A stretch of 64,000 nt of DNA. Origin: a virus. Both the position numbers and the translations under genes were made by a program. Below are positions 38,962 to 53,939 of this stretch, in pieces. The notes beneath the pieces are model-generated. The model ran no database searches and was not told where the DNA came from. It was given only the letters and a program-made list of their open reading frames with translations. The stretch lies in the IMG/VR virus record IMGVR_UViG_3300045135_002615, positions 124,001 through 188,000 of that record; one strand, written 5' to 3'. Numbering within the stretch: the stretch's first letter is position 1; the number at the start of each line of letters is the position of its first letter.

Positions 38962-41900
38962 ATGGCAATTCAAGGCGGATACGCACCACCTGGTGTCTAC
39001 ACAAGCACTACGCTTGAGACCCTTAATCAAACACAACCCACCATTCGTGGTAGGGTTCCAACTCTTATTGGTACTGGACGACAGACCGTAGAGAATAAGG
39101 GCGTTGCCCTTGTCAGAGGTTCTTCTGCTACCATTGACCAACGTATCGTGGGTGAAGACCCCACAGGTCGTATGGTATCAGGTCAAAACCCAGATGGGTC
39201 TTACAATCTAGCTGACTTTGATGGTGCTCTCAACCAACTAAAAGTGAGACACCTCCCCGTTGTCAGTGGTGATGGCTCAGGCACGATCACCAATAACCCA
39301 TCAAGCGTAGTGGCTACCATTAATGGAAATGCCGTTGTCGTACTTGCTGTAAATGGCACTGATGGGATCATCACCCTCGCTGAAGCACCCACTCAAGGTG
39401 ATGATGTTCGTGTCTCTTACTACTTCAACCGTATGGACACCCTCGTAGAGAACGAAGACGTATCCGCTCAGGTAAGTTCAAATGTTAGTGAACTGTACGC
39501 CTCTAGCGGTACGTTTGTTATCTCCTCTACTACTAACACTCTGTCAATCTCCGCAGATGGTGTCAGTGGTGTGATCACCCTCCCCCAAGCTACCGCTGCT
39601 GAGAGAGCAGTTTCTATTCAGAGAGTTGTAGCTCAAATCAATGACGCGGGCATTGGTTCACTTGAAGCGGACACCTATGTTGATAGCAATGGGGAAGAAA
39701 ACCTCTACCTCACAGCTAATGGATCAATCACCATCGGCAACGGGTCTGCTAATCAAGCTCTCGGTCTTTTCCAAGGTATGACAGGTACTGTTCGCACCCG
39801 TACCTTCTTCACTACTAATGGACCTATCGTAGATGGCTCTAATAGTGGTGTGGTCACGACTGACGTGAACCTTGTTAGCGTTCGTGTTAATGGCAATCTC
39901 GTCACACCTGTTGCTGTTGATGGTGCTAATAACTCGGTGACACTCTCAGAAGCTCCCGTTGTTGGTTCTTCTGTGACAATCACCTATTACCACAACACCT
40001 TCCGCAATCAGTTCGACTACCTGCCTGGTTCAAACATTCGCTCTATTGATCGCGTGGCTCTTACTTATGGTTCAGGTGGCCTAAGCGGTACCTATACTCA
40101 AGGTGTTGACTTCATCCTTCAAGATGACAAGATCATTTGGGGTACAGCGGCTTCTTCATCTGCGGGACTCGTACAAAATGGAGAGGTGTCCTTCGGGTCA
40201 AATCAAGTTGCTGTAGGTCTCCGTGATGAGAGAGCGTACAACATTGAGTGTACTCGTGTACTCAACACTAATGCTTCTGTGGTCACAAATAAGGCTCAGC
40301 TCCCCTTTGTAGCTGTAGATGGCACAGGTACCGGCACAGCTACAACTAACCCTGCTATGGTGACGGCTATCTCAGGTGTGTCTCTTGCTGACGCACTTGA
40401 GAGCAACTCTCCTCTGACCATCACCCGTGTAGAGACTAATGGTCAGATTACGTTCGCTGAGAGCGTACCTAGTAACCATAAGGTTTTTGCTAGTTTCTAC
40501 TACAGCAACATTCAAGATAACTTCAATGACAATGCGTATACCCTTGAGGTGCTCAGTGTCGGTGCTTCAGGTGCAGGTACTTATTCAGTAAGTACCCCTG
40601 CTCGATCCCTCTACAATGTGTCCTATGAAGGCAAGGGTACTGATCTCACTGAGATCGCAATCTCTTTCCCAAGTGGTTCTGAGGCTAACCCTGAAGTTCG
40701 TGTCAGTGGTGGGTCTCCTGTAGAGGAGAACGTCACCCTTCAGATTGAGAACTTTGCAGAGACCCCTGCTGTTCTCTTTGCGGAAGGTTCGGAGAGTTAC
40801 TTCCCTGTGGCAGGGTCTTCCTCTGACCTCCAAGCTACGATTGACAATCAGGCTATTACGGTGGACTTTGATGCTCCTATGGGAGCGGGTCGCATCTCTG
40901 CAATTGCCAACCTTGTTGGTGATGTAATCCCTTATGATTCACTCACTAACGGGACTAACTACGGAAACACCGCTACCACACGCTCAATGAACCTCACCGT
41001 AGATGGTGTCGCTTTCAACCCTGTGCTGATCAACCAAGTTGGTGATGATGTTGACTCATGGGTCAGTGAGATCAATGCAGAGGCGAGTGTTAACGTACCT
41101 ACTTACACCTCGATGGGTCAGTTCTCTTCTTGGGAGGCAATGAACAACACCTATAAGAGCTTCAAGTTCTCATACAAGGGTGATGTCAATGGTCGCAGTA
41201 TCGTAGCCACAGCTACCTTGACTGAGGCAGTCTACCTAACCCCCTCCAACCTCGCCTCTGAGGTGACAGATAGACTTGCTGACGCAGTTGCTACGATTGT
41301 GGCTGCCGATGCTGATATGAATGGTCTTGCTATTAGCTGTGAGGCTGACAACGATGGTCGTCTTGTGTTCTCCCTTGACAGCCTCCCTGTTGCTAATGAT
41401 GCATACGGCTTCATTGAGTTCATTGCTGACGATGACACGTCCTTCTTGACCCTTGCGGGTGTTGACTACGACTCAGAGGCACGCACTCTTGTAGACAATG
41501 GCGATCAGACTAAGTGGGGTTATCTACCCGTTGCCGCTAAGTCACGCACCACACTCTCTACGGGTGAACTTCGTGATCGCCTCATCCTCAAGAACAGAAC
41601 CCTCATGGGTAATAACTACTACGCTCCTGTGGATCTCGGTGTTGAGATTAATAGTGGTGTGCTCCTCAGTGACGCAGGGTTCGCGGCGGGTGATGTTGCA
41701 CACGCCCTCCGTACCTCTGTCATTGACGCCCCTACTCTTGTTCTTACTCTCGGTTGGACAGAGGTAGACGCTAGCGGTATCCCCGCTAAGACTCTTTATG
41801 ATGGGACTGGTGCTGAGGATGCAAACGATACCCTTGTGTTTGAGGTTGATGGTACTACCGTTAACATCCCCTTGACATCTAGCACCAATGGTACTCTCGT

Positions 41901-43782
41901 GCCTATCACCGGTATCCTGTCAGACATCAACTTCGCCCTTACAAATGCAGGGCTTGTTGCAGAGGGTCACATTGAAGGTGCTACCATCCGTATTGTGGTC
42001 AGTAGTGCTAACCTATCTTCATACATCAAGGTAGGAGCAGGGCTCGCTAATGACACCTTCCAAATCGTTGAGGGTACAACTTCTTCAGCACAGGGTGTCT
42101 CTGCTCAAGCGATGGTTTCAGCACTGATGAGCCACAGCGTAGACGGTGGTTCATTTGATACGACACTCTTCTCAGAGCAACCTGCTTCAATCTCGGCGGC
42201 AGGGTTCTTCACAGAGAAGGCGGTTGCCTTTGTCGCAACGGAAGTGGAGACAGGTAAGAACTATCTCGGTATGGAGTCTCTCTCAGCAGGTAACGCATCA
42301 GTGATTAACATCACAGGTGGCGACATCTTGCGTAGGGGTGTGGGTCTACGTCTTACTACAGACAGCATCGCTACAGGTGAGGCAGCATACCAAGGCTTCT
42401 TCGTGACTTCGGATAGCCTCAATGGTTCAGGTTCTGCTAACACCTCTGTCTTGAATGATGGGCTCGGTGCGGATGGTGTGATTGGACAAACGTATGTAGA
42501 TGAGGTGACAGGTCTTACAATCAACCTCCTCCCTCGCACCAATGGTCTTGGATATCCTACGGGGGCCAACTCAACCTTGAGCTTCAAGGTGAGCACCACC
42601 TTCACATCAGATGCAAACATCCCTGTTGTTTCGATTCCAGGTGTGTCAATGGTTGTCTCAAACACTACGGGTACCGCTGTAGGTGACACCGCTGTTGTGG
42701 AGACCTTCCTCTCTAACGATCAAGAGAAGGAGCCTACTCTAGGTCAGACATACTATGTTGACTACACCATTGATCGCAACTTGTACAACACCCGTGTGTT
42801 TACTAACCTCAGTGATGTCATCAAGACTTATGGTCCCATCAGCCCTGAGAACAGCTTGAGTCTTGGAGCGTACCTTGCCTTCATCAATGGAGCTGTCAGC
42901 GTGGCTTGTAAGCAAGTTCAGTTGGCGGATGGTCAGACTACTTTGACCGAGGAGCAGGTCCTCCAAGCTATCCAAGACATTGAAGGTGAGATCCAACCTG
43001 GTCTCTCACCTTCTGTGATCACACCTCTCGTACCAATGACCTCCACTATCATTGCTGAGCTCAGCAACCATTGCGACCTTCAGTCAAGCCTCCGCTATCG
43101 TTCGGAGCGTAGGGCGGTGGTCGGTGTCGCATCAGGTACGCAACCCCGCGAGGTTCAGAATCTAGCTCGTGCTGTGGGTAACTCTCGTGTATGCATTGTC
43201 TACCCTGACCTTGCTTATGTGTCTTTCACTGACGATGTGGGAGTTAATCAGAGGTATCTCGTAGGTGGTGAGTTTGTAGCGGTTGCTGTTGCTAACGCTA
43301 CGTCTAACACTTCTCTAGATGCAGCTACTCCTTGGACGGGTCGTACCATCAACGGGTTCTCCGGACTTGCCCGTAACCTTGACGAGGTGGACGCTAACGC
43401 AACCGCAAACGCGGGTGTTACGGTGCTCCATCAGAGTGTTGACGGCATCAAGGTACGTCATGGTCTTACAACTAACATGACCTCTGTCCTTACCAAGACA
43501 CCTACTGTGGTTCAGATTGCTGACCATGTGCAGGTTCGTGCTAGGGCTCTCCTTGAGAGGTACATCGGTGTCAAGTATGTCCCACAGACTATTCAGCAGA
43601 TTGAGGGTCGTGTAAACGCTTTCTTCAAGCAACTCGTTCGTGATCAGATCATCTCTACATACACGGGGCTTAACGTGAGTCGTGATGCCAACGACCCCAC
43701 ACAACTCAACATCGAGGTCTTCTACAAGCCTGTGTACCCACTCCTCTACATCCAATTCAGCTTCACCATTCAAGGTGGCTAA
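38962..43782 (+). CDS. Contractile tail sheath protein, 1606 aa (very long)
   Basis: The N-terminus GGYAPPGVYTSTT and the C-terminal ~150 residues (ALLERYIGVKYVPQTIQQIE, NAFFKQLVRDQI, LNIEVFYKPVYPLLYIQFSF) match the conserved ends of sheath proteins. These form the inter-subunit beta-augmentation mesh. Most sheaths are 400-900 residues, so much of the ~1000-residue middle is insertion. Three Ig-like units lie at ~98-156, ~288-345 and ~448-517, each of the form 'DGSG..TTNP...V..NG..ITLAEAP..G..V..SYYYN'. The inserts probably face the sheath exterior. Strong codon bias (GGT, CTC, ACC) fits an abundant virion protein. A terminator follows. Confidence 0.92.
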   Translation: MAIQGGYAPPGVYTSTTLETLNQTQPTIRGRVPTLIGTGRQTVENKGVALVRGSSATIDQRIVGEDPTGRMVSGQNPDGSYNLADFDGALNQLKVRHLPVVSGDGSGTITNNPSSVVATINGNAVVVLAVNGTDGIITLAEAPTQGDDVRVSYYFNRMDTLVENEDVSAQVSSNVSELYASSGTFVISSTTNTLSISADGVSGVITLPQATAAERAVSIQRVVAQINDAGIGSLEADTYVDSNGEENLYLTANGSITIGNGSANQALGLFQGMTGTVRTRTFFTTNGPIVDGSNSGVVTTDVNLVSVRVNGNLVTPVAVDGANNSVTLSEAPVVGSSVTITYYHNTFRNQFDYLPGSNIRSIDRVALTYGSGGLSGTYTQGVDFILQDDKIIWGTAASSSAGLVQNGEVSFGSNQVAVGLRDERAYNIECTRVLNTNASVVTNKAQLPFVAVDGTGTGTATTNPAMVTAISGVSLADALESNSPLTITRVETNGQITFAESVPSNHKVFASFYYSNIQDNFNDNAYTLEVLSVGASGAGTYSVSTPARSLYNVSYEGKGTDLTEIAISFPSGSEANPEVRVSGGSPVEENVTLQIENFAETPAVLFAEGSESYFPVAGSSSDLQATIDNQAITVDFDAPMGAGRISAIANLVGDVIPYDSLTNGTNYGNTATTRSMNLTVDGVAFNPVLINQVGDDVDSWVSEINAEASVNVPTYTSMGQFSSWEAMNNTYKSFKFSYKGDVNGRSIVATATLTEAVYLTPSNLASEVTDRLADAVATIVAADADMNGLAISCEADNDGRLVFSLDSLPVANDAYGFIEFIADDDTSFLTLAGVDYDSEARTLVDNGDQTKWGYLPVAAKSRTTLSTGELRDRLILKNRTLMGNNYYAPVDLGVEINSGVLLSDAGFAAGDVAHALRTSVIDAPTLVLTLGWTEVDASGIPAKTLYDGTGAEDANDTLVFEVDGTTVNIPLTSSTNGTLVPITGILSDINFALTNAGLVAEGHIEGATIRIVVSSANLSSYIKVGAGLANDTFQIVEGTTSSAQGVSAQAMVSALMSHSVDGGSFDTTLFSEQPASISAAGFFTEKAVAFVATEVETGKNYLGMESLSAGNASVINITGGDILRRGVGLRLTTDSIATGEAAYQGFFVTSDSLNGSGSANTSVLNDGLGADGVIGQTYVDEVTGLTINLLPRTNGLGYPTGANSTLSFKVSTTFTSDANIPVVSIPGVSMVVSNTTGTAVGDTAVVETFLSNDQEKEPTLGQTYYVDYTIDRNLYNTRVFTNLSDVIKTYGPISPENSLSLGAYLAFINGAVSVACKQVQLADGQTTLTEEQVLQAIQDIEGEIQPGLSPSVITPLVPMTSTIIAELSNHCDLQSSLRYRSERRAVVGVASGTQPREVQNLARAVGNSRVCIVYPDLAYVSFTDDVGVNQRYLVGGEFVAVAVANATSNTSLDAATPWTGRTINGFSGLARNLDEVDANATANAGVTVLHQSVDGIKVRHGLTTNMTSVLTKTPTVVQIADHVQVRARALLERYIGVKYVPQTIQQIEGRVNAFFKQLVRDQIISTYTGLNVSRDANDPTQLNIEVFYKPVYPLLYIQFSFTIQGG

Positions 43783-45722: not shown

Positions 45723-47747
45723 ATGAAGTATTTTGCAAACAAGTTCGCTAAGCGTTGTGGTGGTTGCGGGGTTCGAGTTGAGGTGGGTCAAGGATACTCC
45801 TTCAACGATGGGGCATGGAAGACTACTTGTAAGTCTTCCCTGTGCCTCGACAAGGTGGGATTGGTGATTGACACCAAGAAGTACATCACTGCGGAAGGTG
45901 AGATTTATATGCCTTATGACCCATCAGCACTCCCCATTTTAAGGGGTATGCCAGGAGCACGATTTGATCGTGCAAAGAAGAGTTGGGTCGTGAGCATTGA
46001 GCCTAAAGACCGAACTCGTGTCCTTGAAGGGGCACGCAGATTAGGGCTCACCATCCCAAAGGGCTTCGATGTCCTTGAGATGAGCGAGGGAGTTAAGAAG
46101 GCGGTGAGTAGGGCTAAGTCAGCAGGTGCTTACGATTATCAGCTTGAGGGCGTTAAGTTCCTCTCAGAGAGAGATCGTGCCCTGCTTGCCGATGACATGG
46201 GTCTCGGTAAGACTTTCCAATCGCTCAACGCAGTTGAGGGTCGTGCCATTGTCCTCTGCCCTGCATCTCTTAAGAGCAACTGGGCAAGTGAGGTCAAGAA
46301 GTGGCGTTCAGACCTGACCCCTGTGATCTGTAAGGGTCGTAAGGGGTTCAAGCTCCCCGCTGATGGTGAGGTGGTGATCATCAACTACGACATCATCCCA
46401 CAGGAGTTCAAGAGCGAGGAGGATGTCCCTGACTCTTGGAAGCCCGCACTCTCTGAGACTACGCTCATCAGCGATGAGGCACATCTCTGCAAGAGCTACA
46501 AGGCGGCACGCTCTCAGCGTACTGCGGTGCTCTCACGCATGTGCGGTAAGTCTTGGGCGATGACGGGTACACCCCTCCTCTCAAAGGGCTTCGATCTTTG
46601 GGGTGTGGTGGAGACCTTCGGCATGGGCTATGAAATCTTCGGTGGCTTCAAGGGCTTCCTCCGTAGCATGAACGCTTACCGCGATACATGGGGTGGTTGG
46701 AAGTTCGACACTCCCGATTCTTCTGTCCCTGAGAAGCTCCGCCGTGTGATGCTCCGCCGTCTTAAGACTGAGGTACTCACTGAGTTGCCTCCAAAGACCT
46801 ATCAAGACATCTTGGTGGATATCAGCTCCAAGAAGCTCATCAAACTTGCTGACGAGGCTCTTGTGGCTCTCGGAGGAGACGGGGCTTCAGACCTCCCCCC
46901 ATTTGAGCAGTTCAGCGAGATTCGTGCTAAACTCGCAGAGGATCGTATCCCTGCCCTCCTTGAGCTTGTTGAGAGCTTTGAGGAGAGCGGGGAGCCTGTG
47001 GTGGTGTTCTCGGCATATCGTAAGCCTATCGACACCTTCCTCGACCGCAATGATTGGGGTGTCATCACAGGTGAGACCTCTGTTGAGGAGCGTCAGATGT
47101 ACGTTGATCTGTTCCAAGCGGGTCAACTGAAGGGTATCGCTTGCACTATCAAAGCAGGTGGTGTTGGTTTGACTCTTACTAAGGCAAGCAAGATGATCTT
47201 CTGTGACTTGGAGTGGAACCCTGCTCTTAACGCACAGGCTGAAGACCGCATCTGCCGTATCGGTCAGACTGCACAGAGCCTTCAGTACATCCGCCTTGTG
47301 AGCGATTGTGCGATGGATCGCCGTGTCCTTCAAATCCTTGACGAAAAGGCTCGCCTCATCACCTCTGCGGTTGAAGCTGAGGTCGCAAGCCTAGAGGGTG
47401 CAACTCTTGTTGTCCAAGAGACTGAGGAGGAGCAACAAGCCCGTATCGCTGAAGAGGCAACCAAAGAGATCAACGCATCTGCTCGTGTCTGCCAAGCTCC
47501 TTCTATCCCCTTGACTGAGGAGCAGAAGGGTGCTGTGAAGGGTGCTCTTAACAGCCTCCTCAGCCTTTGTGATGGTGCGAGGTCAGAGGATGATATGGGT
47601 TTCAACGCTACCGATGCATACCTCGCTCGCCTGATCGCCCGCTCAGGCTTGATTGACAAAGACATCCAAGTCCAAAACGCGACTTGGGATATGCTCAAGA
47701 AGTACAAGGGTCAGATCGGTCAGATGTACCCCATTCTCTTCAAGTAA
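45723..47747 (+). CDS. SNF2-family helicase with HARP-like domain (SMARCAL1-type)
   Basis: 674 aa. N-terminal Cys4 module (CGGCGVRVEVGQGYSF ... CKSSLC), then a HARP-like segment (YDPSALPILRGMPGARFDRA, KKSWVVSIEP) as in annealing helicases that remodel stalled forks. SNF2 core: motif I DDMGLGKTFQSL, Ia CPASLKSNWASEVKKW, II SDEAHLCKS (DEAH), III MTGTPLLSKG, V KAGGVGLTLTKA, VI QAEDRICRIGQT. The C-terminal ~100 residues are extra. It likely plays the branch-migration or fork-reversal role that UvsW has in T4. Codon bias as in the recA-like gene. Confidence 0.93.
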   Translation: MKYFANKFAKRCGGCGVRVEVGQGYSFNDGAWKTTCKSSLCLDKVGLVIDTKKYITAEGEIYMPYDPSALPILRGMPGARFDRAKKSWVVSIEPKDRTRVLEGARRLGLTIPKGFDVLEMSEGVKKAVSRAKSAGAYDYQLEGVKFLSERDRALLADDMGLGKTFQSLNAVEGRAIVLCPASLKSNWASEVKKWRSDLTPVICKGRKGFKLPADGEVVIINYDIIPQEFKSEEDVPDSWKPALSETTLISDEAHLCKSYKAARSQRTAVLSRMCGKSWAMTGTPLLSKGFDLWGVVETFGMGYEIFGGFKGFLRSMNAYRDTWGGWKFDTPDSSVPEKLRRVMLRRLKTEVLTELPPKTYQDILVDISSKKLIKLADEALVALGGDGASDLPPFEQFSEIRAKLAEDRIPALLELVESFEESGEPVVVFSAYRKPIDTFLDRNDWGVITGETSVEERQMYVDLFQAGQLKGIACTIKAGGVGLTLTKASKMIFCDLEWNPALNAQAEDRICRIGQTAQSLQYIRLVSDCAMDRRVLQILDEKARLITSAVEAEVASLEGATLVVQETEEEQQARIAEEATKEINASARVCQAPSIPLTEEQKGAVKGALNSLLSLCDGARSEDDMGFNATDAYLARLIARSGLIDKDIQVQNATWDMLKKYKGQIGQMYPILFK

Positions 47748-48394: not shown

Positions 48395-49816
48395 TCAGTG
48401 GAAAATACCATTGAGCCATTCTACCATATCCCCTAGAGAGAGACTTGTAGAAGGGTGAGATGCATACACATAAGAACCTGCAATCTTCTTCGACTCCCGT
48501 ACAAAGACCATAGGGTCAAAGTGGAGCTTAGTTTTACCCTCAAGCAAGCATTGTCTGAGTGAGGTATTGAGTCGAGATGAGCTTAGGAAGTTCAAGATCA
48601 CCTCTGGGTTGATGTAAGCTTTATTAGTTGTAGATGAGTCCTCATGTGAGAGAGCCACTTGTGCTCTCTCATGTGCTGCTGTGAGAGTCTTAACAATCTC
48701 TTTTACGACCTTTTCCTTCAGAGCCTCACCCTCCTCCTCTGAGAACGCTTTAATCCTCTTTAAGAGTGCTTTTCGTTCTTCTTTGAGTGTATCATACACT
48801 TCTTGAGTGGCTCTTAGTTTCCTGAAATCAGTGACTTTGAAGTCTTTGAAATTCTTTTTGAAGTACTCACGGAGGTGTCTATAGTCATAGGGTCTACCTG
48901 AGCAGTCAACAAACAAGTATTTACTACCTTCACTCAGAGCCTTGTCCGTATATTCTCGAACAATAGAGACAAGGGTGGAGTCTTTAAGAGTAGCGACATT
49001 CTCAGTGCCCTTCTTCCCTCTGAATTTTAGTTCTGCAAAGTTGTCTTTAATGAACTCAATGTGCTTAGGGGTGAGGGTCACAGCTCCAAAGGTTTCGACC
49101 TTTTCTTCAGAGCTATCATCTTTCTTAATAACTCGGTTGCCCATACGACCTGGTCGTATTCCTGTTTCCATGATGATAGAGAGAATGATAGCCGAGAGCT
49201 TTATACGTTCGTCTTGGGACGTGAGATCCTTCTTTACTTTTTTAGCAATGGCATTGTACCTACGAACGAGCTTCCTTTGAGCTTTGACCTTTGCGGAGAG
49301 ATCATAGACCCTATTCTCAAAGAGGTCTGATATCTCTTTGATATTTCCATTAGGGTCTACATCGACAACGATAGAAGGTGGCAGGAATGATCTGAGTTCT
49401 TCAGGGAGGATGCTCTTAATAGGTCCTTGCTTCTCGTGTAGGAGGATATCCTTAAATGAGGGCAACGTCATCGTGCGATAAGTCTCAGTGACCTCTCTTA
49501 ATGGGATGTTGCCAAGTAAGTAATCTACGACAATACGGAGGGTCTTGTTACGCCTTGATTTGGACGACTTAGAGATACCTTCCTCGCCAACGAACTTGTC
49601 TAGGTGTTCTAATAGGAGAGGGTTGTTTTTAAGGGATTTTTTAAGTTTGCGGGTGCGTTTCCCCGCCATGTCTTTACTACGCCCTTTCATCTCCTTTTTG
49701 ACACGGTTAGCTTCAGGACGTAGTTCTCTGAGGACTGACCTTAGACTTTTGAGAGACCTCTCTTGGAAGGCATTGTGTCTACGCCTCTGAGCGGGAGTAA
49801 CTTTTAAATCTTCCAT
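48395..49816 (-). CDS. DNA topoisomerase IB (poxvirus/eukaryote-type)
   Basis: 473 aa. Type IB enzymes relax DNA of both signs through a 3'-phosphotyrosine. The catalytic set is recognisable in order: METGIRPGRMGN (first Arg), TFGAVTLTPKHIEF, LKFRGKKGTEN (Lys), VTDFRKLRAT (second Arg), and VALSHEDSSTTNKAYINP (His and nucleophile Tyr). The N-terminal ~70 residues are a basic extension. About 65 residues after the Tyr are unusual, because cellular enzymes end soon after it. The motif spacing excludes an ordinary tyrosine integrase (the TFGAVTL..HI..L.F.GKKG block is TopIB-specific). Promoter motif at 49849-49862. Confidence 0.85.
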   Translation of the reverse strand: MEDLKVTPAQRRRHNAFQERSLKSLRSVLRELRPEANRVKKEMKGRSKDMAGKRTRKLKKSLKNNPLLLEHLDKFVGEEGISKSSKSRRNKTLRIVVDYLLGNIPLREVTETYRTMTLPSFKDILLHEKQGPIKSILPEELRSFLPPSIVVDVDPNGNIKEISDLFENRVYDLSAKVKAQRKLVRRYNAIAKKVKKDLTSQDERIKLSAIILSIIMETGIRPGRMGNRVIKKDDSSEEKVETFGAVTLTPKHIEFIKDNFAELKFRGKKGTENVATLKDSTLVSIVREYTDKALSEGSKYLFVDCSGRPYDYRHLREYFKKNFKDFKVTDFRKLRATQEVYDTLKEERKALLKRIKAFSEEEGEALKEKVVKEIVKTLTAAHERAQVALSHEDSSTTNKAYINPEVILNFLSSSRLNTSLRQCLLEGKTKLHFDPMVFVRESKKIAGSYVYASHPSTSLSLGDMVEWLNGIFH

Positions 49817-50245: not shown

Positions 50246-50608
50246 TTACTTGATACGGACAACCAATGCTGACCTGGCATTAGATGAGTTGTTGGTAGCT
50301 TGAGAAGGGAGCCTCCTCATGCTTGGGTTATTGACACGGAGGGTGTTCATGGAGGTTTGGAAGTCGTCCTCAAGTACGGACTGATACTTGTCTGGCTTAC
50401 GGCTATATGCCCATAAAAGATTGAGCCTCTCTTGCTCCAACTCATTCATCGTAGGCAAAAGAGCTTGGAAGTCATCTCTCGCTTTTTGATTGCCGTCAGA
50501 CAAGAACTCAAGTATCAGTTCATCTGGGAGTTGAGGTTGATTGTCAGGGTCCTCAAAGACACCTGACAAGGTGTTTACCCCATTTGGCAATACCCAATAG
50601 TTACTCAT
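50246..50608 (-). CDS. Hypothetical protein, 120 aa
   Basis: ATGA overlap with the preceding membrane/coiled-coil gene. Soluble, acidic in the first half (GVFEDPDNQPQLPDELILEF) and helical (MNELEQERLNLLWAYSRKPD); Ser/Asn-rich end. No signal peptide and no catalytic motif for a lysozyme. Its place between two membrane proteins suggests the same process but its role is unknown. Confidence 0.68.
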   Translation of the reverse strand: MSNYWVLPNGVNTLSGVFEDPDNQPQLPDELILEFLSDGNQKARDDFQALLPTMNELEQERLNLLWAYSRKPDKYQSVLEDDFQTSMNTLRVNNPSMRRLPSQATNNSSNARSALVVRIK

Positions 50609-51105
50609 GTGTCACTCTCCTCCTCTTGTGATGGCGTGTCATCAGCTTCCTTAGTGCTCGGAGTCCACTTAGCCACAACACCTTTGAGTTTCACTTGATC
50701 CTCAGACTTAGTCTTGATGGGTTCCTCACCATGAAAGATAGAGAGCTTGTTGATGACCGCAGTTTGTAGCTCAAATATCTGCTCCCTTAAGAGTTGCATC
50801 TGTATTTGAGCATCTCTTAAGCGGGCTATCAGAGCTTCTCTATCTGCGTTAGCAGAAGAGAGCTTATCTTTTAGTTCCTCTACTTCTGAAGGGTCTCTAC
50901 CCGAAGCAATAGAGAGCATTGAGCTAATCGAGCCCGTAAGCATACCTACAATGCCGATCAAAATGTCTCTGTTCTTCTCAACAATCTCATGGGTCGATAA
51001 GAAGTAGATCAAAGCTACAATCAAGAACATGAAGACAACGGAAGCCCACCAACCCCGCTTTGCCTTCTCTGTTTGTGAGAGCTGTGTGTTAGATTTATCA
51101 GGCAT
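50605..51105 (-). CDS. Membrane protein with coiled coil (inner spanin-like), 166 aa
   Basis: A basic start, a transmembrane helix (WWASVVFMFLIVALIYFL, ~19-36), a second hydrophobic stretch (ILIGIVGMLTGSISSMLSIA, ~48-67), then a long heptad region (VEELKDKLSSANADREALIA through LLREQIFELQTAV, ~75-118) and an acidic tail. One or two membrane passes followed by a coiled coil is the i-spanin plan, and two small lipoproteins are encoded nearby. The second hydrophobic segment is unusual for a spanin, so a holin or a signalling membrane protein is an alternative. Confidence 0.65.
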   Translation of the reverse strand: MPDKSNTQLSQTEKAKRGWWASVVFMFLIVALIYFLSTHEIVEKNRDILIGIVGMLTGSISSMLSIASGRDPSEVEELKDKLSSANADREALIARLRDAQIQMQLLREQIFELQTAVINKLSIFHGEEPIKTKSEDQVKLKGVVAKWTPSTKEADDTPSQEEESDT

Positions 51106-51137: not shown

Positions 51138-51968
51138 CTATAAATCACTTATGACATAAGTGATGAACTTTATGACCTCATCTAGGACAGGTATGTAGTA
51201 GGGTAAGCCTAGCCAATATCTCTTGCTTGGGTAAATGATAAAGGGGTACAAGAAGTACAGGTAGATGGCGAGCGTGATGAACCCCATTCTCCAAAAGAAC
51301 CACTCAATCCACTCCTTGAGCTTTCTGTCCCGTGCTCTTGATTTGATGTACTTAGGTCCACCAAGCCTCTTTACTTTCTCTGACCCCATAGGAGGTTGTA
51401 TGGACTCTATAGTTGTCCCGATTGCGTAAATCTCTTGAGGCTTTGAGACACCTTTGAACTTGTAGAGACCTACACACACCAACCTAGCGTCTTTAGGTAT
51501 ATTCGTATCGAGCCTTGAGTTCAGATGAAGCACCGCCTCTTTAGTGAGGAGTACTTGACCTGGACCGCATAAGCTCATGGTTCTTGCGGCGATGTTTTTT
51601 GCTAGACCTTCTAGTTCTACTCTCTTAGCCCCCGCTCCCACGAACTTAGCATCTTGTTCGACTTCAATGATCTTGCCCCAATGGACACCTATACGACACT
51701 TGAGCTTAGTCTTAGGGGGGATGGTTTCTTGATACCTCAATGAGAACAAGACTGCATCACTGAGCTTGTCGAAAGAGAGTAAGAACCCATCAGATCTGTC
51801 AATCTCTCTTCCATTGTGTTTGTAGCAAAGCGATCTGGCTAATCTATCATGGTATTGAAACCACGCCGCAGCTTTAGCCCCACCATGTCTCTGTACGAAC
51901 TTAGTAGAGCCAATGATGTCTAGCAGTACGATGGCGAGATACTTCTCTCTCATTGTTAAAGGTGCCAT
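51138..51968 (-). CDS. Class III nucleotidyl cyclase with membrane tail
   Basis: 276 aa. The cyclase homology domain spans ~8-190. LAIVLLDIIGSTKF carries metal Asp17. GREIDRSDGFLLSF has the second metal Asp60. IGVHWGKIIEV follows, and GLAKNIAARTMSL has the transition-state Asn and Arg. The final AGPGQ-like element is LCGPGQVLLT. The base-specifying Lys of adenylyl cyclases is not evident near GREID, so the product could be cAMP or another cyclic nucleotide. A basic linker (KSRARDRKLK) leads to hydrophobic segments (~222-245, GFITLAIYLYFLYPFIIY), placing the enzyme at the membrane. Lies between a lipoprotein and a membrane coiled-coil gene. RBS GGAGGTGA. Confidence 0.88.
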   Translation of the reverse strand: MAPLTMREKYLAIVLLDIIGSTKFVQRHGGAKAAAWFQYHDRLARSLCYKHNGREIDRSDGFLLSFDKLSDAVLFSLRYQETIPPKTKLKCRIGVHWGKIIEVEQDAKFVGAGAKRVELEGLAKNIAARTMSLCGPGQVLLTKEAVLHLNSRLDTNIPKDARLVCVGLYKFKGVSKPQEIYAIGTTIESIQPPMGSEKVKRLGGPKYIKSRARDRKLKEWIEWFFWRMGFITLAIYLYFLYPFIIYPSKRYWLGLPYYIPVLDEVIKFITYVISDL

Positions 51969-51971
51969 TTG

Positions 51972-52184
51972 TCACCTCCATAATTTAGGTATCTCACCAC
52001 AAGAGAGGCTTAGGATATAAGCACCCATCTCATCATCACACCCTTGAATGAAAGGTCGGAGACCTGTGCAAATGTCTATATGATCAACAGCACGTTCACA
52101 GAGAGGTCTGTTATCCTCGTGCCCGACTTGATCAGGACAACTAATTAGTAAAGCAGTAGATATACATAGTGCGAGTATCCTCAT
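51972..52184 (-). CDS. Lipoprotein, 70 aa
   Basis: MRILALCISTALLISC is a typical lipoprotein signal (lipobox LIS-C, Cys16). The mature ~54 residues hold five more Cys (RPLCERAVDHIDICTG, FIQGCDDEM, LSLSCGEIP), so a disulfide-linked periplasmic or outer-membrane domain is likely. Four bases separate it from the cyclase gene, whose RBS lies in its last codons, which suggests coupled expression. Could be an o-spanin, a surface-exclusion factor or a partner of the membrane cyclase. Confidence 0.72.
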   Translation of the reverse strand: MRILALCISTALLISCPDQVGHEDNRPLCERAVDHIDICTGLRPFIQGCDDEMGAYILSLSCGEIPKLWR

Positions 52185-52507
52185 CAGCTTGACCCCATAT
52201 ACGCAAACTCTTGTTTCTTGATCACCTCAAGAGGGCTTGTCTCATCTCTTCTCATAATCCATTGGATGTAGTAGTTACCTGGCAGGAACGCAGTAGATAG
52301 CTTTTCAGAGACGTAGTACACACCTGGTTCTTCTTGATGGGGGACACGGTATCCAACACCAACTCTCCACTCACCTTGAATATGGTCTACCCCATAAAAC
52401 TCATAATATATCTGATAAGGGTCATAGGGGTTACCATAGCCGTCAAAGAGGATCACTTTGAGGTCATTGGGTCCGAGCGTAGTACCTGGTAAGTATGCAA
52501 CAGACAT
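52184..52507 (-). CDS. Putative virion protein, 107 aa
   Basis: Strand-rich with GPNDLKVILFDGYGNPYDPY and EEPGVYYVSEKLSTAFLPGNYYIQW. This reads like an Ig-like or carbohydrate-binding beta-sandwich, of the kind seen in small phage tail and decoration proteins ('PGVYY...A..PG.Y.I.W'). Overlaps the lipoprotein start by one base. No enzymatic motif. Confidence 0.68.
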   Translation of the reverse strand: MSVAYLPGTTLGPNDLKVILFDGYGNPYDPYQIYYEFYGVDHIQGEWRVGVGYRVPHQEEPGVYYVSEKLSTAFLPGNYYIQWIMRRDETSPLEVIKKQEFAYMGSS

Positions 52508-52508
52508 C

Positions 52509-52868
52509 TTAAACCACCGAGATGATGTTAGAGGGGTCTGTACTGCCCGCTACAGTAACAGGATCTACCGATATGGTCTGCTCACCATATACAAAACTAT
52601 CATCAGCGGTGAGCTGTGCCTTATACTCGACATATAGGGTGAGACCGACTGCGTCATTGGGGATGACATACCTTGAGACATATCGGTGGGTCTGATCCGT
52701 CTGTTGCATGGCGACATCACCACTCAGGATAGACCTGACGACACCTGAGTACTTAAAAATAGTCATGGTGACGTTCTTCACAGAGATTGGTTTGTTGTCA
52801 GAACCAACCCATGCTATCTGACAGACCACGGAGTCTTGTATCTTGGCTCTCGTATGGTAATAGATCAT
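52509..52868 (-). CDS. Putative virion protein, 119 aa
   Basis: Beta-rich (CQIAWVGSDNKPISVKNVTM; VTMTIFKYSGVVRSIL; RYVSRYVIPNDAVGLTLYVE), resembling the next gene's fold and typical small tail or fibre-associated modules. First gene of the minus-strand cassette, led by an 8-bp RBS hairpin. Function not recognised. Confidence 0.68.
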   Translation of the reverse strand: MIYYHTRAKIQDSVVCQIAWVGSDNKPISVKNVTMTIFKYSGVVRSILSGDVAMQQTDQTHRYVSRYVIPNDAVGLTLYVEYKAQLTADDSFVYGEQTISVDPVTVAGSTDPSNIISVV

Positions 52869-52921: not shown

Positions 52922-53245
52922 ATGAAGTCATACATATTCCCCGTATCTGCGTTATTAGTAGCGAGCATCATATTTTGGTACAAGGGCAATGCCAAGCAAG
53001 TGTACGGGCTAGATTGGTCACCGCTAAGATGGTGGTTATTCACAAGCCTCTTTACGAACTACTTGACACTCCACGCATGGTGGAAACTCATAGAGTTAGG
53101 TGACATTTGGAAAGCTGGTGTTATTTGGGGGGTCACAAGCCTTCTTGTAGATGTCACGATGAACAGCATCTATATCGGATTTAATTGGAAAGGGATTGTA
53201 GCTCTAGCCATGTGTGGCTTAGCCGCAGCTCTTATCCATAGTTAA
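52922..53245 (+). CDS. Multi-pass membrane protein, 107 aa
   Basis: Lone plus-strand gene inside a minus-strand block. Four probable membrane helices: IFPVSALLVASIIFWY, WWLFTSLFTNYLTLHAWW, IWKAGVIWGVTSLLVDVTMN and IVALAMCGLAAALIHS. Many Trp at the interfaces. No family recognised; small polytopic phage proteins of this kind often alter the host membrane (superinfection exclusion), but that is not shown. Its 3' end overlaps the GIY-YIG gene by 4 bases. Confidence 0.65.
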   Translation: MKSYIFPVSALLVASIIFWYKGNAKQVYGLDWSPLRWWLFTSLFTNYLTLHAWWKLIELGDIWKAGVIWGVTSLLVDVTMNSIYIGFNWKGIVALAMCGLAAALIHS

Positions 53246-53622
53246 GGCTTCCAACCTGTAGGGTTGGATACCCATGGGTGATTAAGACCCTCTCCCTTGC
53301 AGTAAGGTGAATCTTCAGGTGTCCATAAGCACCTGTTATACCCCCTCTTGCCCTTCTTGAGGGCGTGTTCCGCTCTTAAAGCCTCTGATCGTGTATCATA
53401 AGGTCCGAAGCACGCACGAGCTTCCCATGGTCTATGCTTAGAAGTGAACTTAGAACCTTTAGGGTTTCCTTCTTTGCCATTAGCATAGAGCCCATTGTGC
53501 TCTCTTAGCCTACGAGTTGGGTCTGTAGTCATACCGACATAAAAGAAGCCAGGTAAGGGGGTGCCTTTACGACTCGTTCGTTGTAGAACACTCTGAATAA
53601 CATAGACCCAATATACTTTCAC
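53242..53622 (-). CDS. GIY-YIG family endonuclease
   Basis: 126 aa. VYWVYVIQS (GIY-like) and GFFYVGMTTDPTRRLREHN (YIG, with the catalytic Arg) followed by KFTSKHRPWEA and a Glu in RSEALRAEHALKK match the UvrC/Slx1-type single-domain nuclease. GTG at 53622 is chosen because it forms a GTGA overlap with the upstream gene; an ATG at 53643 would overlap by 25 bases. A Trp/Pro-rich tail follows. It could be a free-standing homing nuclease or a repair/host-DNA degradation enzyme; no intron is visible next to it. Confidence 0.88.
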   Translation of the reverse strand: MKVYWVYVIQSVLQRTSRKGTPLPGFFYVGMTTDPTRRLREHNGLYANGKEGNPKGSKFTSKHRPWEARACFGPYDTRSEALRAEHALKKGKRGYNRCLWTPEDSPYCKGEGLNHPWVSNPTGWKP

Positions 53623-53939
53623 AGAAGCCCCCAAAGTGAACAAAGAGATTCGACCATCACCTCACCTAAGTGAGCACCGCTCATGTGAGGGGTCACATAG
53701 AGACTACCATCAAAACTGACCGCACCACCTTCTGACAAATAGATCGAAAGAAGATAAGCTGCGGTCAAAGGGTCATCAAGCACGGGTACCCATGAAGCGT
53801 CAGGGCTCTTAAGCCTTACTTTCTGCTTTTCATTGTAGAAGGGATGCATGAGCAATCCATCTACAGGCTTCCACTTTTTATGGAGTACGATCTTCTCTAA
53901 AAGGGTTTTAGTGAGAGAGGAGTTCTTGGTCATAGTCAT
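53619..53939 (-). CDS. Hypothetical protein, 106 aa
   Basis: Overlaps the previous gene by 32 bases and the GIY-YIG gene by 4. Helical and strand mix (LTKTLLEKIVLHKKWKPVDG; DDPLTAAYLLSIYLSEGGAV). No family recognised. The weak RBS suggests translational coupling. Confidence 0.6.
   Translation of the reverse strand: MTMTKNSSLTKTLLEKIVLHKKWKPVDGLLMHPFYNEKQKVRLKSPDASWVPVLDDPLTAAYLLSIYLSEGGAVSFDGSLYVTPHMSGAHLGEVMVESLCSLWGLL

Follow-up and report, generated by a model that had tools for sequence, protein, structure and literature searches.

In phage biology, cyclic nucleotides are known mainly as alarm signals of the host, which phages destroy or soak up. The described system closest by sequence to the locus reported here is the bacterial family TIGR04510 (mod_pep_cyc, "putative peptide modification system cyclase"). 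The closest folds are those of the mycobacterial class III cyclases Rv1900c (LipJ) and Ma1120, and we know of no partner protein with two transmembrane helices for either of them. In its gene layout the locus recalls Pycsar, where a class III cyclase lies beside an effector-like gene and one variant (PycTM) has transmembrane helices (PMC11224242), and Panoptes, a minimal two-gene unit of a nucleotide cyclase and a protein with two transmembrane helices (PMC12657230). In the openly licensed literature we found nothing relevant on phage-encoded cyclases or on TIGR04510, and a description elsewhere is possible. Here, we describe a class III nucleotidyl cyclase and the membrane protein encoded directly downstream of it, referred to below as its partner, in a window of 64,000 nucleotides (the whole stretch of DNA that was analysed), which is part of a 296,642-base (296.6 kb) virus record. 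Their sequences point to a signalling device of phages that has so far gone undescribed.

The cyclase gene (51138..51968, minus strand, 276 aa) starts with ATG behind a strong ribosome-binding site (GGAGGTGACAA) and encodes a catalytic domain (residues about 5-205) followed by a C-terminal membrane helix (about 217-245). Residues 11-183 match Pfam Guanylate_cyc (E = 1.1e-7, 32.1 bits against a curated cut-off of 21.9), and the NCBIfam model TIGR04510 is matched as a domain, at positions 7-203 only (1.5e-41, 142.8 bits). An AlphaFold2 model built from the viral family alignment shows the cyclase fold (pLDDT 88.9). The best-superposed solved structure is the cyclase domain of Rv1900c (1ybu, TM 0.91 over the target, rmsd 1.8 A), and most chains of Rv1900c and Ma1120, together the closest structures, superpose at TM 0.85-0.91 over the target, so that the fold matches that of active cyclases. 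The membrane segment is apparent both in hydropathy (residues about 228-246, 51231..51287, minus strand, Kyte-Doolittle 1.77) and as helix 217-245 of the model, and by hydropathy it is present in 64 of the 67 full-length family members among the matches listed. A preceding sequence-only reading had proposed a membrane-tethered class III cyclase with a C-terminal membrane segment at exactly this open reading frame, and the Pfam match above cut-off, the TIGR04510 domain, the modelled fold and the conserved segment agree with it. Structure prediction, which that reading had put forward as a check, gave a confident cyclase fold, and the sequence shows no sign of the active-site disruption that would have spoken against the proposal.

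The same reading had taken the enzyme for a rare and isolated case, a view that was not supported, and the partner gene had escaped it. Searching IMG/VR with a degenerate DNA motif built around residues D57-D60 returned at least 119 contigs, and 79 of the 80 loci examined among these listed contigs encode the cyclase family; an exact-peptide scan of the same database gave no match. By these counts and those of the partner search described below, the cyclase belongs to a conserved pair carried by hundreds of uncultivated phages. Identity to the cyclase studied here ranges from 37 to 67% across its 41 relatives in a 42-member alignment (among the matches listed), and the median dN/dS of the gene is 0.07, which rules out a chance match or a pseudo-domain. 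Neither the isolate-phage collection nor PHROGs yielded the family, and no close relative turned up in BFVD. The sole match in the isolate collection, MT838110, was rejected as a phage relative: its 14 kb carry long high-GC genes of bacterial type, and its cyclase forms the N-terminus of an 892-aa protein. Although labelled "Bacteriophage sp.", MT838110.1 looks like a bacterial contig of high GC content. A second phage cyclase lineage was observed at loci L036 and L061, whose cyclases have P at the position of N125, group with bacterial relatives and lack the partner. They sit among baseplate-like genes (L036:7064-8193 and L061:250-1370, both on the minus strand; read from the sequences by eye), and just upstream of each lies a conserved gene for a transmembrane and coiled-coil protein of 101-103 aa, 52% identical between the two loci and unlike the partner.

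Profile alignment to solved cyclases identifies D17 (codon 51918..51920, minus strand) and D60 as the metal-ligand aspartates, and N125 and R129 (codons N125-R129, 51582..51596, minus strand) as the transition-state pair. Among the full-length relatives found with the motif (n = 67, among the matches listed), none deviates at D17, D60 or R129, and 65 keep N125. Part of the conservation of residues 53-63 in this set follows from the search motif itself, and because the motif covers D57-D60, the catalytic residues were counted again in relatives to which only the partner gene had led. There, D17 (55/55), D60 (55/55) and R129 (57/57) are likewise invariant and N125 occurs in 54 of 57, while D57 (55/55) and K124 are also without exception. 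Judged from two differently ascertained sets of relatives, the catalytic set is under selection. Both metal aspartates and the Asn/Arg pair are kept, as the sequence-only reading had stated, and a catalytically competent cyclase is the best reading of these residues. This conservation bears on a non-enzymatic use, in which a degenerate cyclase fold would serve as a structural or packaging accessory. We consider such a use highly improbable: it would suit the location of the pair, which most carriers have between the terminase and portal genes, and the nearest bacterial relatives have indeed lost the transition-state Asn, but the phage clade keeps both Asp residues and the Arg without exception and the Asn in nearly all members, and the pair is also found away from packaging genes in other phages. 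Moreover, cyclases lacking the Asn can be active, as exemplified by Ma1120 (PMC4215837).

The residues expected to select the base are less conventional. Using the residue numbering of Ma1120 (K101 and D157; PMC4215837), profile alignment to Ma1120 and Rv1900c places D57, on a hairpin one residue shorter, at the slot of the adenine-specifying K101 (codons of D57, R58, S59 and the metal ligand D60, 51789..51800, minus strand), and E118 at the D157 slot of adenylyl cyclases. The canonical adenine-specifying Lys, already noted as missing from the sequence alone, is thus replaced by D57. The base set of adenylyl cyclases (Lys plus Asp, or Thr/Ser) is absent, with D57 and E118 found instead, and in comparison with the guanylyl set an acidic D57 stands in the Glu slot and E118 (N in some members) replaces Cys/Gly. 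The pocket does not clearly follow either of these two sets. R58 shares its slot (metal Asp minus 2) with K104 of the uridylate cyclase AnPycC (PMC11224242); the remaining base residues of PycC are not common to both. Among the cyclases found through the partner (loci L164-L242), about a fifth differ at three positions, R58 (A or N), F62 (H) and E118 (N), and these variants may constitute a second specificity group. The combination of fixed catalytic residues and variable pocket residues suggests that the enzymes are active and may accept more than one substrate.

The partner gene (50605..51105, minus strand) encodes a 166-aa membrane protein with two transmembrane helices (residues about 18-36 and 48-66) and a long C-terminal helix or coiled coil (72-123). 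It was modelled with moderate confidence (pLDDT 68.7); the model shows no globular ligand-binding domain, and Pfam recognises no cyclic-nucleotide-binding domain (CNBD) in it. Of the 68 loci with room for it (among the matches listed), 64 have a partner homologue directly downstream of the cyclase and in the same orientation, mostly with a short overlap or a tiny gap at the gene junction. Two further, divergent loci (L073 and L091) have it on the opposite strand, in the neighbourhood but at a distance from the cyclase. A reverse search of IMG/VR with the partner alone recovered 297 contigs. The cyclase is present in 79 of the best 80 of these, a selection that leans to close relatives, so that more distant partners without a cyclase may exist; in the other contig, the sequence breaks off about 95 bases from the partner. 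The linkage of the two genes is thus near-obligate in both search directions. Partner and cyclase distances correlate more strongly (r 0.84-0.86) than those of the cyclase with terL (0.74) or portal (0.72), and conservation is higher in the partner than in the enzyme, both in the family alignments and by median dN/dS (0.034 versus 0.07), values by which the pair is under purifying selection. None of 369 sampled bacterial genomes of one class had a partner homologue, a draw made without a positive control that therefore shows little.

As possible roles of the enzyme, the sequence-only reading had named the timing of lysis, a decoy for a defence effector and the reprogramming of the host. The conservation of the partner is relevant to the idea that the phage reprograms its host by raising cAMP or cGMP, with CRP-like regulators shifting host physiology and the partner just anchoring or stabilising the enzyme. 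The intact catalytic residues would allow this, the 23 carrier records searched yielded no CNBD receptor of the phage's own, and CNBD proteins were matched in most control bacterial genomes. Still, we regard host reprogramming of this kind as unlikely, as a partner conserved above its enzyme is more than a passive anchor needs, the cyclase has a membrane helix of its own, the canonical Lys and Asp of adenylyl cyclases are both absent and the base pocket varies among members.

We instead favour, at a probability of roughly 45%, that the two genes form one membrane signalling unit, a receptor-type cyclase split over two chains in which the partner controls the cyclase. This mechanism is preferred because the cyclase has no N-terminal sensor domain, both proteins are anchored in the same membrane and the genes are practically inseparable; in the models, it is the partner that brings transmembrane helices and a coiled coil. 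The catalytic domain would face the cytoplasm and homodimerise. Both termini of the partner would also lie in the cytoplasm, where its conserved coiled coil could contact the cyclase dimer and switch or hold it, with the membrane as the sensed or the anchoring element. From this topology we infer that the partner regulates the cyclase rather than being regulated by it. In infected cells, the pair would make a cyclic mononucleotide, and either a host component or the partner would be its target. No CNBD protein (PF00027) was found in the 23 carrier records, and therefore no dedicated phage receptor of a known type is apparent; as most carrier records are fragments, however, the absence of an effector is weak evidence. 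The pair would be expressed late in infection, which is probable because it lies between the terminase and portal genes in most phages.

The strongest rival to this split signalling unit, possible in our view but doubtful, is a phage-owned conflict module of the Pycsar, CBASS or Panoptes type. Here, the partner would be a membrane-damaging effector that the messenger of the cyclase switches on or holds off, directed against superinfecting phages or standing guard against nucleotide-degrading counter-defences. It would act on the inner membrane as a new effector type without a known ligand domain, possibly answering to different messenger bases in different members. The combination of a cyclase and a protein with two transmembrane helices is comparable to the layouts of Pycsar PycTM (PMC11224242) and Panoptes (PMC12657230), and the Pfam family matched by most partner members (19/35, best 5.5e-5) is that of the SLATT effectors, which also have two transmembrane helices; in 6 of the 7 carrier records tested, the only SLATT_fungal match sits at the partner's place. 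However, the SLATT scores shown are all under the cut-off (at most 20.5 bits in the ten proteins shown versus 26.5), an unrelated AbrB profile matches 16 of 35 partner members almost equally well, and the SLATT profile also gives sub-threshold matches in 7 of 14 control genomes. Aligned by hhalign with one true SLATT_5 protein (a single sequence), the partner reaches a probability of 0.2%. Given the Pfam cut-off, the matching controls and the hhalign result, the partner was rejected as a SLATT member. The lack of a globular ligand-binding domain in the partner model speaks against an effector as well, as does PADLOC, which returned no match for either protein (E<=1). With neither a PADLOC match nor a CNBD in the partner or the 23 carrier records, the pair was also rejected as a recognised Pycsar system.

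Variability is also found in the genomic setting of the pair. The carrier is a tailed phage, since the window contains the large terminase, the portal and a tail sheath akin to those of jumbo and other myophages, and no near DNA relative was found among isolates for the 25 kb tested. In most carriers, the pair lies between the genes for the terminase large subunit and the portal, followed by those for the head protease, the scaffold and the major head protein. In this phage, its jumbo relatives and several other lineages, it is positioned elsewhere. The cyclase tree requires at least three changes of context, by which the pair travels between genomic settings. Carrier records reach 375,691 bases (about 376 kb), and the two ends of the largest (L084/L166) carry almost identical copies of the cyclase region, suggesting a nearly complete circular map. 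Several other genes of the window were noted. Downstream of the module, a 473-aa protein (48395-49816, minus strand) matches a eukaryotic-type topoisomerase IB catalytic core (PF01028, 3.4e-12). The plus strand encodes a 674-aa DNA helicase (45723-47747; phrog_62, 2e-92) and the tail sheath of 1606 aa (38962-43782), whose match to known sheaths is limited in most phages to the C-terminal part, with longer matches only in LR745208 and Tunturi_5. A GIY-YIG endonuclease look-alike was judged by eye at 53242-53643 (minus strand).

The surroundings of the cyclase also bear on whether the pair governs lysis timing or inner-membrane remodelling, with a holin- or spanin-like partner and the cyclase setting the time. 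Directly upstream of the cyclase lies a gene for a small, 70-aa lipobox-bearing protein (51972..52184, minus strand), this phage encodes an 84-aa protein with two transmembrane helices, the partner itself is a small protein of that type, and many carriers have the pair at a late-gene location. We nevertheless find such a role very unlikely. Neither a holin nor a spanin family is matched above noise, two transmembrane helices would place the coiled coil in the cytoplasm, unlike in a spanin, and no lysis gene was recognised beside the cyclase. Conservation of the lipobox neighbour is confined to the 7 loci of the jumbo-phage subgroup, and no association with the module was seen beyond them. Together with genes for proteins of 107 and 119 aa, it forms a row of three small genes (51972-52868, minus strand) whose order is kept in the 7 loci of the jumbo subgroup.

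Compared with cellular enzymes, the phage cyclases are closest to TIGR04510-type proteins of Rubrivivax, Lysobacter and Xanthomonadaceae (32-41% identical). All 42 aligned family members match the TIGR04510 model, whereas class III cyclases of bacteria in general reach much lower scores on it, so the relationship is a specific one. Both groups share an EID-R/K-S/T-DGF motif and the substrate-loop insert GAKxxExxGxxK, and several TIGR04510 members likewise have a hydrophobic stretch after the cyclase domain. Unlike the phage cyclase, however, the bacterial proteins measure about 840-1100 aa or more, owing to a large C-terminal part, and mostly have P or A in place of N125; they and the main phage family form separate clades with moderate support. 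Membership in TIGR04510 was rejected, as the 142.8 bits compare with a curated whole-protein threshold of 400 bits over 814 positions. Rv1900c and Ma1120 share the fold, the metal ligands and the Arg with the phage cyclase, but the base-site residues of Ma1120 (K101/D157) are unlike those of the phage enzyme. Cyclase folds also occur in viral proteins of BFVD, from uncultured Caudovirales (A0A6J5RWB7 and A0A6J5KRX6), Harvfovirus and Pandoravirus, which are at most 20% identical, mostly multi-domain and outside the phage cyclase family. If the proposed function is true, the cyclase-partner pair of these uncultivated contigs would mean that phages also make cyclic-nucleotide signals. In being carried by phages, the pair differs from Pycsar, which bacteria use against them. 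It differs from Panoptes in both components, as mCpol is a Cas10-like enzyme and 2TM-beta has a beta-barrel ligand domain where the partner has a coiled coil only.
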